DNA of 25,425 bases from a virus. The stretch covers positions 1-25,425 of the IMG/VR virus record IMGVR_UViG_3300032323_000741. One strand, 5' to 3'. The position numbers and the translations under genes were made by a program. Under the pieces are notes generated by a model. That model ran no database searches. It was not told where the DNA came from and saw only the letters and a list, made by a program, of their open reading frames with translations. Positions within the stretch are counted from its first letter, which is position 1, and each line of letters begins with the position of its first letter. Positions 1,059 to 17,155 of this stretch are shown here, piece after piece.

Positions 1059-1535
1059 ATGACAGAATTACACGCTAAACCGATTATCGATAATAAATTT
1101 TGGATTGTCGAACAAGATGGAGAAAAAGTTGCCACTCTTCGAAAAAATGAGGACAATCGATTTGTTATGAGCAATGAAGGTGGTATTAAGATATACGATA
1201 CCAAAGAAAGCCTAACTAGAGAATTTGGTAAAAAATTCTTTACAGTAAAAATTGTTAAAGAATCCGAAGATGCTTTACCTAACGAAGTTCACGGATACCC
1301 TACCAGCACTGCTCCATACAATGCTATGTTTGATATTAGAAAAAAACTTCCGTTGTTTACCAAGAGTGACGACTCAAAAAGTTTATACTGTGCAGGATAT
1401 TACACAATCAAGTTTGAGAAAGGGTGGGTCAAAAGTTTTTGCCCTAAAAAGATCACACTTGAACGTTATCCCTACAAAGGTCCATTTAAAACAGAACTAG
1501 AAATGAAACAGGTGTTATCAAATGTCTCAAAATAA
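1059..1535 (+). CDS. Conserved phage hypothetical protein, 158 aa
   Basis: I do not recognise a function. The frame is open from 981, inside the end of the nuclease gene, but I start it at ATG 1059. A GGAG at 1049-1052 lies six bases upstream, and the in-frame ATGs at 981 and 996 lack a comparable site. The protein opens MTELHAKPIIDNKFWIVEQ, is mixed alpha/beta in character, rich in Lys and aromatic residues, with no signal peptide or membrane segment. Two cysteines (in SLYCAG and KSFCPKK) lie in the C-terminal half. It overlaps the next gene by 14 bases, which suggests translational coupling. A longer form from 996 would add a Cys-rich N-terminus (three Cys in about 17 residues) and cannot be excluded. 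Confidence 0.72.
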   Translation: MTELHAKPIIDNKFWIVEQDGEKVATLRKNEDNRFVMSNEGGIKIYDTKESLTREFGKKFFTVKIVKESEDALPNEVHGYPTSTAPYNAMFDIRKKLPLFTKSDDSKSLYCAGYYTIKFEKGWVKSFCPKKITLERYPYKGPFKTELEMKQVLSNVSK

Positions 1536-1773
1536 TATACCAAACACATTGCCCACTGTTGAAAAATTAGTTCAACGTGTAAACATTGCCGAAAAGAGTC
1601 AACAGAAAGAAATAAGAATTACAATACAAGAAGCACGTGACTTAACTGCCGAATTAGCTATTCTTACTTCTAAATTAGGTCGTACAGTACAGGAAATACA
1701 TCAAACTCTACTCGAAATACGTGAATCTACTACCAAAATAGATGTTAAGTTTGACGGCGGCGGCTTTAATTGA
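1522..1773 (+). CDS. Small helical hypothetical protein, 83 aa
   Basis: Function unknown. After a polar N-terminus the residues from about 13 to 70 look almost wholly alpha-helical, with heptad-like spacing of Leu/Ile (LTAELAILTSKLGRTVQEI), so a short coiled coil or oligomer is likely. The tail ends in a Gly-rich DGGGFN. It starts 14 bases inside the end of the upstream gene and is followed by a late-promoter box 1 bp after its stop codon, so it is probably the last gene read before a promoter boundary. It could be a small scaffold or accessory subunit, but nothing in the sequence decides this. Confidence 0.65.
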   Translation: MSQNNIPNTLPTVEKLVQRVNIAEKSQQKEIRITIQEARDLTAELAILTSKLGRTVQEIHQTLLEIRESTTKIDVKFDGGGFN

Positions 1774-1781
1774 TATAAATA
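1774..1781 (+). promoter_or_regulatory. T4-type late promoter TATAAATA
   Basis: An exact match to the T4 late promoter -10 box, recognised in T4 by the gp55 sigma factor; marine T4-like phages are reported to use NATAAATA. It sits directly between two genes and 31 bases before ATG 1813. By T4 geometry transcription would begin near 1787, inside the left arm of the adjoining inverted repeat. Confidence 0.65.
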
Positions 1782-1812
1782 TATACGTGGTTAATTAGGA
1801 AACACGTATATA
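1780..1812 (+). promoter_or_regulatory. Perfect 10-bp inverted repeat abutting a start codon, with the SD in its loop
   Basis: The arms TATATACGTG (1780-1789) and CACGTATATA (1803-1812) pair perfectly around a 13-base loop, and the next base is the A of ATG 1813. The loop holds AGGA (1797-1800), the only plausible SD for that gene. The left arm overlaps the late-promoter box by two bases. An mRNA reading through from upstream would fold this hairpin over the ribosome site; one starting at the late promoter would lack most of the left arm and could not. T4 uses this arrangement for gene e, soc and I-TevI. The regulatory role here is inferred. Confidence 0.55.
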
Positions 1813-2097
1813 ATGAGTAGACCAAAACCAAAGATACTTTTAGAATATGCCAACAAAGAAACTTTTAAAATCGAGCAGATCCTCGATAGCGAAGCTATTT
1901 GGGCAGTATTCTATCAAGGTCAACCATTCAATCTTAAGAGTGGTAGTCTAGTTGCCAGCTACCCAGGACCTAAATATAAAAAAGTAAGTTTTAGTAATCC
2001 TGGTCACGCTCACAATCTAGCAAAAAAATTAAATCGACTTTTTAAAACCTTAGACTTTGCCGTTTATAAACTAACCTCAGGCGAAGAGGTCAAATAA
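1813..2097 (+). CDS. Conserved phage hypothetical protein, 94 aa
   Basis: Function unknown. The protein is basic and compact, with an N-terminal strand-rich part (ILLEYANKETFKIEQIL), a motif AIWAVFYQGQPFNLKSGS and a C-terminal helix rich in Lys and Asn (HAHNLAKKLNRLFKTLDF). The combination suggests a small nucleic-acid-associated or replication-accessory protein, but no named domain is recognisable. A perfect late-promoter box lies upstream, and the start codon sits at the foot of a 10-bp hairpin that may limit translation from read-through transcripts. Its stop is one base before the next start, so the two are likely translated together. Confidence 0.7.
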   Translation: MSRPKPKILLEYANKETFKIEQILDSEAIWAVFYQGQPFNLKSGSLVASYPGPKYKKVSFSNPGHAHNLAKKLNRLFKTLDFAVYKLTSGEEVK

Positions 2098-3694: not shown

Positions 3695-3992
3695 TCCTTT
3701 GTTTAGACCGCCACGACATCTTGTCAAAGAGTGGCCGGAAGTATTTGAGGATCTTTATATGAATACCATGCCTGTGGCTTATCTAGATACTATTCATCTA
3801 GAATTTGCCGATGGCAGGGTATGGCAGATAGATATTAAAGATCAGTTAAAAGAAGAAAAACCAGATGCCATTGCTGATCGATTACTCGAAACACTAGCAG
3901 AATACAAAGATGAAATTAAGAAAATAGATTTTAAAGTAGATATTGATAGACTTAAAAAAGATATAGGCGATTCAACTAAATCAATTCTCTAG
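3687..3992 (+). CDS. Conserved phage hypothetical protein, 101 aa
   Basis: Function unknown. A short basic N-terminus (PLFRPPRHLVKEW) is followed by a strand-rich part (YLDTIHLEFADGRVWQIDI) and a long charged C-terminal helix (residues 55-98, many Lys, Asp and Glu). It starts eight bases within the end of the preceding gene with only a weak upstream purine run, so translation may depend on coupling. It is the last + strand gene of this block. Its final 17 bases overlap the end of the convergent dehydrogenase gene, with no room for a terminator between them. Confidence 0.72.
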   Translation: MPNPLFRPPRHLVKEWPEVFEDLYMNTMPVAYLDTIHLEFADGRVWQIDIKDQLKEEKPDAIADRLLETLAEYKDEIKKIDFKVDIDRLKKDIGDSTKSIL

Positions 3993-5202
3993 TATTACCA
4001 TAATGTATTACAGTATGTTCATCTGATTTAAATGTTCTCCAAGGGTCAACAACAACTGACCCTTGTTCTATTTTACAGTATAGATTTTGTAGTTCATTAA
4101 ATCCACGATACTCGTATGTGACTTTTCTATTGTGTGCTAACAGTACGACCCCATAACACCCTTTAATGTCGTCACCAGTTAGTGGATCAATATAGGTTGG
4201 AGTATGCCCTAATTCTTTACAGTAATGTCCAATTAATAAACTATAACTACCGTCACAGTATTCAACTCCCGGTTTATAGGCTTTGCCGTGAATAAAGATA
4301 CTCATTCTATTTTTCTCAGCGTGTTTTACTAATTCTTTGGCTAGATTTTTAGCCTGTATTTCCCTAGCAGACATTATTGCATCAAACAGATCGTAGCCTA
4401 GATCTAATTCTTCTGCTAGATATCTTAGTGCAATATTATCTCGGGGATGACACGCACCTCCATCCCCCATACCGGCCTTCATATACTGCGGGCCCATAAT
4501 ACGCAAAGTTGACTTTTCTAAAGCATCAGTGACCACATCGACATTAATATTTCCCTGACGTACAGCTACATCCTGTATCATATTAACTAATCCGATCTTA
4601 GTTGAAATAAAAGTATTATAAAAAATCTTTATACACTCACACTCGTCCCAGGTTCCTACAACATATCTAGGATTATTTTCCATTACAGTTTTATAGAAAT
4701 CAATTAGTTGTCGAGCATCACCGGTTTCTTCCCCGTCTTTGGTGCCAATCATAATCATTTCAGGATTAACCATATCCCATGCTACTGACCCCATAGCAAT
4801 AAGATAGGGATTATAAACAAATCTAGTATTAGGTATTAACTCGATAAACTCCCGTCTAGTAGTTCCGGGCAGTACTGTGCTAATAAGAACTAACAATTGA
4901 TCTTTAGTCATATGCTTATTTGCTTCTATTAAACATTCCTTAACTATCGAGTAATCAAAGTCTTTAGGTTCTAAATGAGAAGTAGGCTGTCTGCCATCGT
5001 ATGCAGGATCGTGGGGGGTTGGCACAGCAATAAACACAATATTTCTATCTTGCACTGTTTCTTTAATAGTCGACTTTATGTCTATCAATATAGTTGGCTC
5101 AACTGTTTGAATATCGTAGCCCGCAACTGTGTGTCCCTTCTTTGCAATTTCTTCTGCGCAGGGCATACCTAACTTACCTAAACCAATAAAACCAATTTTC
5201 AT
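3976..5202 (-). CDS. UDP-glucose/GDP-mannose-type nucleotide-sugar 6-dehydrogenase, divergent
   Basis: The 408-aa protein belongs to the dehydrogenase family that oxidises a nucleotide sugar at C6 to a uronic acid, using two NAD+ via a Cys thioester. Visible are the Rossmann GFIGLGKLGMP at 4-14, VPTPHDP at 60-66, the conserved lysine helix (K202, N207), the catalytic-Cys motif GGACHPRDN at 248-256 (C251, D255), and a C-terminal sugar-binding domain opening near GKAYKPG. The loop that normally reads PEFLxEG is here PYLIAMG (132-138), so two usually conserved glutamates are absent. AAAGGA at 5209-5214 is the SD, and the start overlaps the upstream radical SAM gene by ATGA. The family is firm; substrate and even activity are open. 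A product such as UDP-glucuronate would feed the nearby epimerase. Confidence 0.85.
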   Translation of the reverse strand: MKIGFIGLGKLGMPCAEEIAKKGHTVAGYDIQTVEPTILIDIKSTIKETVQDRNIVFIAVPTPHDPAYDGRQPTSHLEPKDFDYSIVKECLIEANKHMTKDQLLVLISTVLPGTTRREFIELIPNTRFVYNPYLIAMGSVAWDMVNPEMIMIGTKDGEETGDARQLIDFYKTVMENNPRYVVGTWDECECIKIFYNTFISTKIGLVNMIQDVAVRQGNINVDVVTDALEKSTLRIMGPQYMKAGMGDGGACHPRDNIALRYLAEELDLGYDLFDAIMSAREIQAKNLAKELVKHAEKNRMSIFIHGKAYKPGVEYCDGSYSLLIGHYCKELGHTPTYIDPLTGDDIKGCYGVVLLAHNRKVTYEYRGFNELQNLYCKIEQGSVVVDPWRTFKSDEHTVIHYGNTRELI

Positions 5203-7121
5203 TTTTGTTCCTTTGTTACTAGAGATTTACCAAAGTTACGTTTTCTTCCAAAATAGATGTTTTCTAAAAATCTATCCAAACTGATATCTTTACTTTCGTG
5301 AAACTCAAACTTATATTTTACAGTATTCTCTAGTGGTGTGTTATCTAATATGTAACCTAAGAAGTCATAATCAAACTCAATTGTATAAGGAAATTGTTCT
5401 ATGTTATCATAATCAATTACATAGTTACGTTGAAACTGTAATAATTGTGTTAAACATTTTGCATCTAGAGAAAACTCACTGATTACAAACTTTTCTATTA
5501 GATCAAATACATAATTATATTTTCTATCTAGATGCATATTCAATGTAGTTCTATGTATAATATTCCATCCGTGGACTTCAATGTTAGATATATTAGGATG
5601 ATTAATTTTACCATCAATCATCCAATTACAATAATAGTGTCTAAGCTCGTCACGTTCTTTAATAAACCAAGGATCGTCTTGTAGGTAATTCCATAGTCTA
5701 TCATAAAATACAGAATAGTCTATATCTGCATTTTTATGTAAGAATCTGCTGATGTATGTAGTAAGTCCGTTAATATGAAATGTTTGCATAAACCAACTGA
5801 ATACCTGACTATCTAACATTTCTTCTGTTGGCATGTCCTTAGTTCCGGTAACTACATCAACACACTCTTGGAGTTCATTATAGTTATAGCTTCCGCTCAT
5901 ATAATCGTACACGGGTACACTGGTAATTTCATAAAGACGTTGTTGTAGCAAATTCATTTCAGCGTTTTCAAGCAGTTGTGCGTGTAATATATTAATACCG
6001 GTGTGATTACCTGCACGGTATATCTTATAGAATCCTTCCTTCCATGTGTCTTTTGTTTCGCCCGGAAGTCCTAGAATAATTTCTGTATAAACAGGAACAT
6101 TGTTTTTATCGCATAGTGCAAAAATGTTTTCAATTTTGTGTTGTGCTAAATTTTTACGTTTGATATTTTCTAGAACATCAAGATCCATACTTTGCACACT
6201 AACAGTCAATCCCTGATTAAACTTAGGATTCTTAATTAGTTTGAACACAATATCAAACACTTCAGGTTTTTGATCTTTGGCCCAACTCATACTGAAGCTG
6301 TTAGGAAATCCGTATTTTTCCTGCACTTCAATTAGCTTATCAGCGATAGCATTATCACGTTCTACAAACATACCAAAGTTAGCATCAGTAATAGTGACAA
6401 ATCCGCAACCTTTTTGTCCTATCCATTCTAACTCTGCAAATACCTTTTCTAAATTAAACTTTTTAACTTTGTTATAAGTTAGACTACCCCAATCACAAAA
6501 TGTGCAAGCATATGGACATCCTCGATTTGTTTCGACTGTTGCGTTCCACTCTACATCAGTAGTTTCTGTCATTATCTTATCAAACACACCTGTAAGATAT
6601 GGACTAGGCATATCTTCTAAACTGCTGATACGTTCTCCGTCACCTGTGTCTACTGCTAATCCGGCGTTATTAATTAACAATCCCTTAATATCAAGCCAAG
6701 AAGTGTTAGCCGATATTGCATCTAATAATTGCCGTAAAATAATTTCGCCCTCTGACTTAATTACTACATCAACAAATGGCAACTTTTCAAAAATATTTTT
6801 CTTTGTAATAGGCATTTCTGGACCGCCAAAGAATATCAAACAGTCTGGGTTTATTTCTTTAAGCCTACGTGCTAGTGCGTAGTTATAGTTTTTGTTCCAC
6901 ACATAGGTGCTGAAGCCAACTATATCACATTTAGACAACTTGGATACAGTTTCGTCAATGTTATCACGTCGCCAGATTAAATCTTCTAGTTGGTAATTAG
7001 ATTTAATTGATTCAAATTGATTAACATAGGCCCATAATACTCCTACGCTGTATGGAAGGTAGTGTGCATTAAATTCTTTTGGACCTTGTTGAAAATTTGG
7101 TTGAACAAGACTTATTTTCAT
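5199..7121 (-). CDS. Radical SAM protein with B12-binding-like N-terminal domain
   Basis: The N-terminal 140 residues resemble a cobalamin-binding Rossmann domain (LVQPNFQQGP, VGFSTYVWN, FFGGPEMP), but I see no DxHxxG motif, so base-off B12 binding is doubtful. The radical SAM core follows, with the Fe-S ligands in RGCPYACTFCDWG (C202, C206, C209), then VTITDANFG and EIILGLPGET segments typical of class B-like enzymes. The last 230 residues match nothing I know and may bind substrate. At 640 aa it is long for the family. The frame extends to an ATG at 7157, but that form would overlap the divergent gene, so I take ATG 7121; no clear SD supports either. It is coupled by ATGA to the dehydrogenase. 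Chemistry could be methylation or rearrangement of a sugar or other small molecule (inference). Confidence 0.83.
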   Translation of the reverse strand: MKISLVQPNFQQGPKEFNAHYLPYSVGVLWAYVNQFESIKSNYQLEDLIWRRDNIDETVSKLSKCDIVGFSTYVWNKNYNYALARRLKEINPDCLIFFGGPEMPITKKNIFEKLPFVDVVIKSEGEIILRQLLDAISANTSWLDIKGLLINNAGLAVDTGDGERISSLEDMPSPYLTGVFDKIMTETTDVEWNATVETNRGCPYACTFCDWGSLTYNKVKKFNLEKVFAELEWIGQKGCGFVTITDANFGMFVERDNAIADKLIEVQEKYGFPNSFSMSWAKDQKPEVFDIVFKLIKNPKFNQGLTVSVQSMDLDVLENIKRKNLAQHKIENIFALCDKNNVPVYTEIILGLPGETKDTWKEGFYKIYRAGNHTGINILHAQLLENAEMNLLQQRLYEITSVPVYDYMSGSYNYNELQECVDVVTGTKDMPTEEMLDSQVFSWFMQTFHINGLTTYISRFLHKNADIDYSVFYDRLWNYLQDDPWFIKERDELRHYYCNWMIDGKINHPNISNIEVHGWNIIHRTTLNMHLDRKYNYVFDLIEKFVISEFSLDAKCLTQLLQFQRNYVIDYDNIEQFPYTIEFDYDFLGYILDNTPLENTVKYKFEFHESKDISLDRFLENIYFGRKRNFGKSLVTKEQK

Positions 7122-7129
7122 TATGTGTG

Positions 7130-7147
7130 TATTTAACCGAATAAATA
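7130..7147. promoter_or_regulatory. Divergent late-promoter-like boxes in a 30-bp gap
   Basis: AATAAATA (7140-7147, + strand) fits the NATAAATA consensus. The opposite strand carries GTTAAATA (7137-7130), which shares the TAAATA core. The two boxes form a 6-bp inverted repeat (TATTTA/TAAATA) and point away from each other towards ATG 7152 (+) and ATG 7121 (-). Both leave only four to eight bases to the start codon, so transcripts would be leaderless or nearly so. The + box is the more convincing. Confidence 0.4.
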
Positions 7148-7151
7148 TGTT

Positions 7152-8339
7152 ATGCAAAAATTAAAAATTAAACTAGAAGACAATCCATTTTTTTCTAGTC
7201 CAGAGATGACCACCTTAACTAATGGTGTTGGTGCTGCATCTCGAGCACACTTTGGTGTTAACAAGTATCGACATCTATTTAATAACCATGCCGATGTTAG
7301 TTACATTAGTCTTTTATTAGGTTATGGTCAAAAAATAACTGCGACTACAGACTTGTTTAAATTTATAGATTTCGAATCAATTAATGAGTTAAGAAATGGA
7401 CGTACTGTTTTAATTTTTGATGCTACTCTCGAAGGATATAGTGAAACAGAATTACCTTTAAAAACTTGTCTATATTATAATGCAATCTTACACAATATTA
7501 ATCCTTCTAAGATTTTTTTGTTTACAGGAAATTTTTTAACTGCAGATGATAATATCAATGTAATTCCTATTTTTTTATTAGATACCGGCTGGCATAATAT
7601 TCCAACTCCAGCTACCATTAACGATGCTACAGCAGAATGTTTTAAAAATTTAGAAAAAATAATTTTAAGTTTGTCTCGAAGAAATAGATTTCCTCGAGTT
7701 GTAGCTCATTTTGCATTATGGAAGTCCCAATTAAATCAAGATTCTATTATTAGTCAAGACATAGTGTCTACCACCGCTACATTGTCTGCAGATGTTTTAA
7801 AAAAATTAGATCTAACTATAGAAGATTGGAACGAATTTAAAAGTGTATTACCATTACTAGCAGATGGCAATAACTTTCATATTAATGCACCGTTTGATCA
7901 TTTGCCCGATCTGCACTCTAAGACTGTGTTTAGTATTGTTAATGAAACACTAATTAGTGACTATAATAATACTTCTTTGTTCTTTTCGGAAAAACTATTA
8001 AAACCGATTATTAACTATCAACCAATGGTAATCTACGGACAACCGTGTATTAATCGTAAAATTCAAATGCTAGGGTTTAAAACTTACGATGACTATTTTG
8101 ATTTAAGTTTTGATGACGAACCCGACGACATTTTAAGATATAAAAAATTATTAGCGTCTGTTGAAAGTACCGTTAATCATCTAAAATCTTTATCACGGGA
8201 CGAGCAAATTGCTTGGCGTTTTAAAGAGTTAGAATTGTTAATCTACAATCGAGAAGTGTTTTTACGTAAAGAAAACAATATGAAACAATTAGAATTATTT
8301 TCAGAAAAACTTACATCAATTTTTCAGACCAAGTCTTAG
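7152..8339 (+). CDS. GT-B-like putative glycosyltransferase, 395 aa (paralogue of 10177-11535)
   Basis: The only + strand gene inside the sugar cassette. It aligns with the 452-aa protein encoded at 10177-11535: both have a LRNGR-x-x-L-I-D-x-x-x-E-G-Y segment (here 80-96) and a C-terminal block with an acidic residue (E265), SEK (279-281), a P-x-V/I-x-x-G turn, GFKTYDDYFD (308-317) and an acidic D-E-P-D-D run. A C-terminal SEK followed by a P-I-x-x-G turn recalls nucleotide-sugar-binding ends of GT-B transferases such as family 10 fucosyltransferases, but this is a resemblance only. No signal peptide or membrane segment is seen. There is no SD at ATG 7152. The 3' end overlaps the convergent epimerase gene by 29 bases. 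A glycosyltransferase is the best guess. Confidence 0.6.
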   Translation: MQKLKIKLEDNPFFSSPEMTTLTNGVGAASRAHFGVNKYRHLFNNHADVSYISLLLGYGQKITATTDLFKFIDFESINELRNGRTVLIFDATLEGYSETELPLKTCLYYNAILHNINPSKIFLFTGNFLTADDNINVIPIFLLDTGWHNIPTPATINDATAECFKNLEKIILSLSRRNRFPRVVAHFALWKSQLNQDSIISQDIVSTTATLSADVLKKLDLTIEDWNEFKSVLPLLADGNNFHINAPFDHLPDLHSKTVFSIVNETLISDYNNTSLFFSEKLLKPIINYQPMVIYGQPCINRKIQMLGFKTYDDYFDLSFDDEPDDILRYKKLLASVESTVNHLKSLSRDEQIAWRFKELELLIYNREVFLRKENNMKQLELFSEKLTSIFQTKS

Positions 8340-9312
8340 GAGTCTGTTCATTGATTATTTCTAAAGGATAAGAATAGTCGAAAGGTTTAGAGCCTTGTTC
8401 TTTGATATATTGTATAGTGCCTCTAACACCATCAATTAATTTTGTTGACGTAGTGTAGCCTAATTGAGTTCTAGCTTTGGTAGCATCACAGGTTGCATAT
8501 TTTACTTCATTGGGTCTGTCTGCTACATAGATTGACTCTTCGTTAAAATCTAATTCCTGAATAATTATGTTGGCAAGATCTTTAATTGTAATAAACTCTT
8601 CGTCTGGACCAATATTAAAAATATCATTTTTAATAGTTGGGTCAAAGGCTAATTTTTCTAAACAAAAAATACAGTCGTCTATAAAACTAAAACAACGCAT
8701 TTGACTGCCGTCTCCGTAGATAATTGGCGGTTTATTCTGTAGCACACGATTAATCATTATGCTCATTACATTACGGAAGGGATCGTCATAGCGTTGACGA
8801 GGTCCTACAATATTGTGAGGGACTGCTATAACCCATTCCATATTGTTTAATTCTGCTAGACATTTTAAAACATCTTCTCCAGCTACTTTGGCAATACCAT
8901 AAGGGTCAATAGGTCTTGGTTGTTGTGTTTCTTTAAACGGATATTCTTGATTACCATACCTTGCCATACTAGAACAGTAGACAAATCGCTTAACTTTATT
9001 TTGTATTGCAGCACTAATCGTTGACACACTAGCTTGGAAAATATTTCTTGTTATAAAACTAGGACTGAATATACTTAACCCTTCATGTGCTGTGGCTGCA
9101 CAATGATAGACTATATCGCTGCCTTGCATAGCTTTAGTCATTGTGTCGACATCACAACAATCAATTTGATAAAATTCTGCTTGTTTGGGAACATTGTCAA
9201 TATATCCGCCAATTAAAGTATCATTGCCTGCAACTGTATGACCTAATTCAATCATTCTGTCAGCTAGGTGACTGCCTAAAAATCCTGCAATACCTGTTAT
9301 AAAAATTTTCAT
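8311..9312 (-). CDS. NAD-dependent nucleotide-sugar epimerase/dehydratase (extended SDR)
   Basis: The 333-aa product is an extended short-chain dehydrogenase acting on an NDP-sugar. It shows the NAD-binding TGIAGFLGSH (6-15; G7, G10, G13), D31 at the end of the second strand, an HCAATAHEG loop, CSSMARYG (113-120) supplying the catalytic Ser, and YGIAK (138-142; Y138, K142). PHNIVGPRQRYDD and SFIDDC follow in the usual places. Length and order match UDP-glucose/UDP-glucuronate 4-epimerases and related dehydratases; the intact Ser-Tyr-Lys set implies an active enzyme. Substrate cannot be read, but the dehydrogenase at 3976 makes a UDP-uronic acid a reasonable candidate. It overlaps the SGNH gene by ATGA and has only a weak upstream GAAA, so coupling probably drives translation. 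Confidence 0.87.
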   Translation of the reverse strand: MKIFITGIAGFLGSHLADRMIELGHTVAGNDTLIGGYIDNVPKQAEFYQIDCCDVDTMTKAMQGSDIVYHCAATAHEGLSIFSPSFITRNIFQASVSTISAAIQNKVKRFVYCSSMARYGNQEYPFKETQQPRPIDPYGIAKVAGEDVLKCLAELNNMEWVIAVPHNIVGPRQRYDDPFRNVMSIMINRVLQNKPPIIYGDGSQMRCFSFIDDCIFCLEKLAFDPTIKNDIFNIGPDEEFITIKDLANIIIQELDFNEESIYVADRPNEVKYATCDATKARTQLGYTTSTKLIDGVRGTIQYIKEQGSKPFDYSYPLEIINEQTPKTWSEKLM

Positions 9313-17091: not shown

Positions 17092-17096
17092 GTTTT

Positions 17097-17102
17097 CTCC
17101 TT
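17097..17102 (-). promoter_or_regulatory. Shine-Dalgarno AAGGAG of the sugar operon's first gene
   Basis: AAGGAG lies five bases before ATG 17091 on the - strand, a near-ideal site. It marks 17091 as the head of a translated unit. Confidence 0.7.
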
Positions 17103-17118
17103 AATTATCTGCGCAGTT

Positions 17119-17126
17119 TATTTAGC
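17119..17126 (-). promoter_or_regulatory. Possible late promoter, GCTAAATA
   Basis: On the - strand this reads GCTAAATA, matching the last six bases of TATAAATA. It is in the 64-bp gap between the adhesin gene ending at 17156 and ATG 17091, with room for a leader and the strong SD. The first two bases are off consensus, so this is tentative. Confidence 0.3.
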
Positions 17127-17155
17127 GACTGATAAATTTAGAGAAAAATTTATTA

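Follow-up and report, generated by a model that had tools for sequence, protein, structure and literature searches.

A late-promoter hairpin at the start codon as a probable translational timing switch in jumbo phages related to PA5oct

Can the position at which a phage transcript begins decide whether a gene inside an operon is translated? The question is raised by a 94-aa gene (gene A) in a viral stretch of 25,425 nucleotides (the window; IMG/VR record IMGVR_UViG_3300032323_000741), in front of which a T4-type late promoter box runs into a hairpin that ends directly before the start codon (Table 1). Very probably, this is a translational timing switch that acts in cis, like the one found at T4 gene e. 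Read-through RNA from the upstream operon would contain both arms, fold and thereby hide the Shine-Dalgarno sequence and the start codon of gene A. At the late stage of infection, RNA polymerase would be brought to the box by a gp55-type sigma factor, and the late RNA would start about 6 nt after the box, inside the left arm. With about 3 pairs still possible, the ribosome site on this RNA would be open, and gene A would be made only from late-initiated RNA despite its place in what would be a continuous operon.

An earlier note on this DNA had read the locus in a similar way. Sequence comparison among relatives makes the switch appear well supported, in agreement with this reading. Promoter activity, the true +1, early transcription of the upstream genes and the block and control of translation are inferred. 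The layout, its conservation, the covariation of the arms, the position of unmasking and the presence of gp55-type sigma genes in relatives are results of computation.

Table 1. Elements of the two masked late leaders in the window (position 1 is the first base of the window)
Feature	Position	Strand	Basis
T4-type late promoter box TATAAATA	1774-1781	+	Read from the sequence; late-type box kept in 169/169 deduplicated relatives
Predicted late transcription start	1787	+	Box start + 13, T4 numbering -13 to -6 as given in PMC2988020; masking falls between 5' ends box+8 and box+12
Hairpin left arm TATATACGTG, overlapping the end of the box	1780-1789	+	Sequence, fold, arm swap
Hairpin loop, 13 bases, Shine-Dalgarno AGGA at 1797-1800	1790-1802	+	Sequence
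Hairpin right arm CACGTATATA, ending directly before ATG	1803-1812	+	Sequence, fold, arm swap
Gene A, 94-aa protein, predicted compact beta/alpha fold (pLDDT 93), ATG at 1813	1813-2097	+	ORF and structure model
Upstream 83-aa gene, stop codon TGA at 1771-1773 adjoining the box	1522-1773	+	Homologue upstream in 153/168 relatives
Gene C late-type box GCTAAATA	17119-17126	-	Scan and leader comparison
Gene C hairpin left arm, preceding the box as in T4 gene e	17131-17148	-	Fold and leader comparison
Gene C hairpin right arm, covering AAGGAG	17093-17109	-	Fold and leader comparison
Gene C, 116-aa protein, second masked late gene of the window	17091-16741	-	ORF; structure model (pLDDT 90)

Layout and conservation of the gene A leader

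The positions that the earlier note had assigned to box, stem, loop and start codon are all right on direct reading. The two arms pair perfectly over 10 bp, and the AGGA motif ends 12 nt before the ATG. The RNA from 1770 to 1840 folds with -12.2 kcal/mol (z -2.6), which 4 of 200 dinucleotide shuffles equal. The box alone is unremarkable, as the window contains 2 copies of TATAAATA compared with 5.3 expected from shuffling. Hence, it is the conservation of box and stem in relatives, not the frequency of the box, that confirms the layout as real. Gene A is closely packed behind the upstream gene, whose stop codon directly adjoins the box, and a terminator scan of 900-2600 found no terminator-like site. 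Transcripts of the upstream gene should therefore continue into gene A.

A scan of viral contigs with the 94-aa protein yielded at least 597 relatives, of which 80 were kept, and two further scans with divergent members added more. By tblastn, 235 gene A loci were found among the matches listed. One of these was too short upstream, and 169 remained after removal of loci identical from -60 to +60. Every one of these relatives has a late-type box no more than 60 nt upstream of gene A, which reads NATAAATA in 166 cases and GCTAAATA in 3, the latter recognised by inspecting the exceptions. The first base of the NATAAATA boxes is mostly G (133, with 24 C, 8 T and 1 A). The region of the box is paired with the bases before the ATG at a stem score of at least 6 in 113 of 136 distinct leaders (box-to-ATG segments), and a score of at least 7 is reached by 79% of these 136 leaders vs 7.6% of their own shuffles. 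A GGA, GAG or AGG motif lies inside the loop in 89 of 114 distinct stems and no more than 2 nt from it in 20, while 5 stems have neither.

The function of the gene A protein is not revealed by Pfam, PHROGs, PDB sequence or fold searches, and the viral fold library returns two uncharacterised phage proteins only. Fifteen records of named phages contain relatives of gene A, in which the gene is annotated as a hypothetical protein. In the window, no Rfam family reaches its gathering score. The minus strand at 3976-9312 contains sugar-nucleotide genes (UDP-glucose dehydrogenase, nucleotide-sugar epimerase), and tail-fibre-like proteins are encoded on the same contig.

Predicted masking of start sites and the late sigma factor

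Folding predicts that the start site is sequestered on the longer RNA. Loss of the first 13 bases opens the site, as implied by the proposal that early and late RNA differ in their leader start: the mean minimum free energy (MFE) of the 136 distinct box-led leaders changes from -8.9 to -1.4, and the cost of opening the start site in the window drops from 8.4 to 1.6 kcal/mol on shortening to the late RNA. Across 168 loci, opening costs 10.0 kcal/mol on read-through RNA, 2.7 on late RNA and 5.4 with shuffled upstream sequence, and at 120 of these loci no more than 1 in 25 shuffles is as costly to open. The T4 gene e leader, scored identically as a positive control, gives 15.3 for read-through and 0.9 kcal/mol for late RNA. 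When the 5' end is moved along the leader (160 loci), the mean opening cost stays at about 9 up to box+4 and amounts to 7.1 at box+8 and 3.0 at box+12. Masking is lost with 5' ends at box+8 to box+12, adjoining the T4-type +1 at box+13. Box position and 5'-end profile thus place the late promoter such that the late RNA, with its +1 taken from T4 numbering, would lose the 5' arm.

The strength of masking varies among relatives. The difference between read-through and late RNA is below 3 kcal/mol in 16 of the 168 gene A leaders. The leader of Agrobacterium phage Atu_ph07 is masked (12.1 vs 3.4 kcal/mol, p 0.01). In PA5oct, Paride and Phosso the box is kept, in PA5oct at 35 nt before the ATG, and the shuffle test does not support masking (p 0.38, 0.25 and 0.28, respectively). 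Gene A of SCTP-2 has no box within 60 nt. Folds of the PA5oct and Paride leaders (L358, L362) contain an 18-bp stem followed by a T tract between the upstream gene and the late box, which may insulate gene A by termination in place of masking. The terminator scan found none, however, and so lends no support to a terminator taking the place of the hairpin in PA5oct.

The switch was originally noticed at the 94-aa gene and is supported there, but it is not confined to it. Two further genes of these phages (B and C) have masked late leaders, and gene C belongs to the window. Gene B, the second gene with this layout, emerged from a pattern scan and encodes 246-382 aa in 3 of the 4 genomes first examined. 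Box and ATG are present in 71 of 80 relatives, and the segments printed mostly have a stem that includes the start codon, although the script took an earlier ATG in a few of them. Across 30 distinct segments, the opening cost starts at 8.3 and has dropped to 3.5 with the 5' end at box+12. The shuffle test is weaker for gene B, with p 0.00 in G006 and G005, 0.23 in G003, 0.17 in G010 and 0.23 in G011. On the complementary strand of G006 at 73237, the gene B hairpin precedes a different ORF of 111 aa, compared with 246-382 aa elsewhere (G007, G003, G005).

For gene C, database searches for a function were without yield and the structure model has no convincing PDB match. Its leader was put to the shuffle test in 19 of 20 relatives, all with p<=0.07, the site being scored 3 nt off in five identical leaders (L371-L375). 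The point of unmasking precedes the box (12 loci), as it does in T4 gene e. On two 280-kb contigs, 6 of 68 ORFs with a late promoter are masked at p<=0.033 vs 2.3 expected, suggesting that the switch is restricted to few genes and does not extend to all late genes. Besides genes A, B and C, late-promoter ORFs with a start site masked on read-through RNA are G011 +187873 (289 aa, p 0.00) and G010 -49782 (1184 aa, p 0.03). The leader of G010 +97633 (287 aa, p 0.07) resembles that of G011 +187873.

The sigma factor that the proposed switch calls for is encoded in most of the larger relatives. In a search of the records with two gp55 families, the gp55-type late sigma family phrog_12791 matches 9 of 14 related contigs, all five named jumbo relatives (PA5oct, Paride, Atu_ph07, Phosso and SCTP-2) and T4. 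The gp55 families have no match in the other 5 contigs, which are four fragments of 69-94 kb and the 275-kb G013, which has gene A. Of 20 records, only that of T4 matches the T4-type clamp family PF02916, and none of G001-G014, PA5oct, Atu_ph07, Phosso, SCTP-2 or Paride does; T4 aside, no record with a gp55-type late sigma thus contains a PF02916 clamp, although a clamp of another type may be present.

These data bear on the possibility that the true start lies further upstream and the hairpin is part of all transcripts, acting as an attenuator, an RNA thermometer or an autogenous protein-binding site. The +1 is inferred from T4 numbering, and thermometers also bury the Shine-Dalgarno sequence in a stem. 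However, every relative has a late-type box inside the stem or adjoining it, the point of unmasking agrees with the T4-type +1, and relatives encode a gp55-type sigma. A single protein-binding site is further at odds with stems that differ among genes A, B and C and are rebuilt in gene A. We consider such a constitutive hairpin quite unlikely.

Covariation and rebuilding of the stem

If the arms act by pairing, changes in one arm should be answered in the other. Compensatory changes, which the earlier note had proposed to look for in related phages, are found, as the arms covary and swapped arms fold worse. Exchange of right arms between different left-arm types of gene A weakens the fold from a native MFE of -9.95 to -5.9 kcal/mol, and the native combination is better in 106 of 113 cases. 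The same holds for 19 distinct gene C leaders including that of the window (native -17.4 vs swapped -11.7, native better in 18). In a MAFFT alignment of 37 leaders, intended for counting pairs by column, the right arms did not stay in register, and partners were assigned by script instead. At index 11 of the left arm (n=155), where the partner was picked without looking at that pair, the counts are 67 A-T, 55 G-C, 10 G-T, 4 T-A and 19 non-pairs. On a tree of 162 rows, built from gene A and the DNA behind it and evaluated for pairs on supported branches, 9 independent pairs differ in the left base; on average, 7.9 of these have a partner that changed in the same direction and 0.0 one that changed in the opposite direction (median p 0.008). 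The shorter tree of gene A only yields 5 independent pairs and is not significant (p 0.125). Compensatory change thus points to selection on the pairing in genes A and C.

The standard stem is missing from 23 distinct leaders, 11 of which are still masked at p<=0.1. By fold and shuffle test, several leaders (L074, L238, L243, L244, L250, L333, L347 and L352) have a stem with its left arm ahead of the box, which then sits in the loop as it does in T4 gene e. In the folds of L283 and L285, a GCTAAATA box is followed by an unrelated stem. In L207 and L078, the box is only 13 and 15 nt from the ATG, respectively, and the late RNA would therefore begin at or beside the AUG. The class labels on the tree (I, II, leaderless, none) were assigned by eye from folds, and four class II labels are without backing from the shuffle test (L220 p 0.28, L224 0.20, L232 0.64, L255 0.88).

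Masking is absent from L246, L248, L257 and L263, which keep gene A and the box behind a different upstream gene, and from L046, which keeps both in the usual upstream context. As other relatives with a foreign upstream gene retain the stem, context is not the full explanation of the loss. A gene that persists after uncompensated loss of its stem, the observation named at the outset as speaking against the switch, is therefore encountered in a minority (6 of 162 tree rows labelled structureless; 36 of 168 gene A leaders with no win over shuffled-upstream controls at p<=0.1) and not in most relatives.

Covariation by itself would also be expected of a DNA operator for a repressor or activator dimer beside the promoter, since symmetric operators likewise covary between their arms. 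The inverted repeat overlaps the promoter, and there is a precedent in T4, where I-TevI represses its own late promoter via an overlapping operator according to PMC2988022. However, loop lengths of 5-19 nt across distinct gene A leaders would alter spacing and helical phase, G-U pairs are present in the stems, and in some relatives the stem has been rebuilt from different sequence, with a left arm that precedes the box. Moreover, the stems of genes A, B and C are unrelated, yet each hides the start site on read-through RNA. An operator is thus very unlikely.

The structure could also aid initiation by bringing a distant Shine-Dalgarno sequence near the AUG, as in T4 genes 25 and 38, and the AGGA of the window is rather far from its ATG. 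This is scarcely credible, as the structure of genes 25 and 38 sits between Shine-Dalgarno sequence and AUG (PMC3014915, section 29), whereas here the Shine-Dalgarno sequence is in the loop with the arms flanking it, and the late RNA cannot form the stem. That the palindrome arose by chance from AT-rich promoter sequence, for which the AT-rich box and flanks and the shuffles that fold as well might speak in the window alone, has a negligible probability and is refuted at the family level by conservation, covariation and arm swaps. DNA operator, thermometer or attenuator, split-RBS enhancer and chance were each weighed as rivals of the timing switch and rejected.

Relation to known late switches and to leaderless late genes

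The closest counterpart of the timing switch at gene A is T4 gene e, where the read-through RNA folds over the ribosome site and the late RNA starts inside the structure and is open. The hairpin effect at gene e is about 100-fold according to PMC3014915 (section 29). The earlier note had called the layout exactly that of T4. The kind of switch is the same, but the geometry is not: in gene e, as in gene C, the left arm precedes the box, which falls in the loop, whereas the left arm of gene A extends over both the box end and the initiation region. Moreover, the phages studied here are PA5oct-like jumbo relatives outside the family of T4, and gene A is not a lysozyme gene.

Sequestration of late start sites on early or middle polycistronic RNA is described in the same section and in PMC2988022 for T4 soc, 49, I-TevI and segB and for mobE of Aeromonas phage Aeh1. 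Many of these are homing endonucleases or single cases in T4 and relatives, whereas here three unrelated genes of one phage group are involved and the gene A layout is kept in most of the 169 relatives. In T4-type phages, by comparison, the gene e hairpin is patchy, and several have gene e without the structure (PMC3014915, section 29). The late promoters share the eight-base box with its ATAAATA core and the gp55-family gene in relatives with T4, and the GCTAAATA variant corresponds to the Aeh1 consensus a/gC at -13/-12 given in PMC2988020. They differ from T4 in the first base, here mostly G (133/166), and in the absence of the T4 clamp family from the search.

Late boxes in these phages are often placed exactly 12-13 nt before an ATG, so leaderless late mRNAs are predicted. 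This spacing, counted from the start of the box, applies to 44 of 164 ATAAATA sites in G003, G005, G006, G007, G010, G011 and the window, four of the 44 resembling the gene B left arm. The control with 20 permuted 7-mers gives a mean of 3.7% and a highest value of 7.5%, and the same spacing is found at 2 of 65 sites in T4 and 9 of 145 in PA5oct. For an 89-aa gene (ATG at 2525; 2509-2525 in the window), the box lies 12-17 nt before the ATG in 28 of 28 distinct segments with a box, and 12 loci are boxless. A further candidate for a leaderless late gene is a 395-aa ORF of the window, whose ATG is preceded at 12 nt by AATAAATA (7140-7152). The prediction is not unheard of in kind, given that phage transcripts are often leaderless according to passages of PMC5312081.

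We tentatively suggest, as an idea somewhat short of even odds, that the position of the 5' end might be a general licence for late translation in these jumbo phages. Late genes embedded in read-through RNA would be silenced in one of two ways: through a hairpin with its left arm ahead of the late +1, in two interchangeable geometries (A, B and C), or through the lack of any leader, the AUG coinciding with the late +1 and leaving no space for a Shine-Dalgarno sequence (about a quarter of the ATAAATA sites). Evolution would then swap the solutions and keep the logic.

Full-text searches that covered few of the subscription journals listed no title or abstract on such a switch or on leaderless late RNA in this phage group. 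The mechanism is already known; what is new, as far as these searches show, is its setting, the number of genes involved, its deep conservation and the exchange of one geometry for another. The same regulatory logic appears to have been retained at three genes throughout a large group of jumbo phages, in which arms and geometry were repeatedly rebuilt. This would amount to a natural experiment on an RNA switch whose function, rather than its sequence, is conserved, and it offers a testable rule of late expression for cultured relatives, such as Agrobacterium phage Atu_ph07 with its masked leader.
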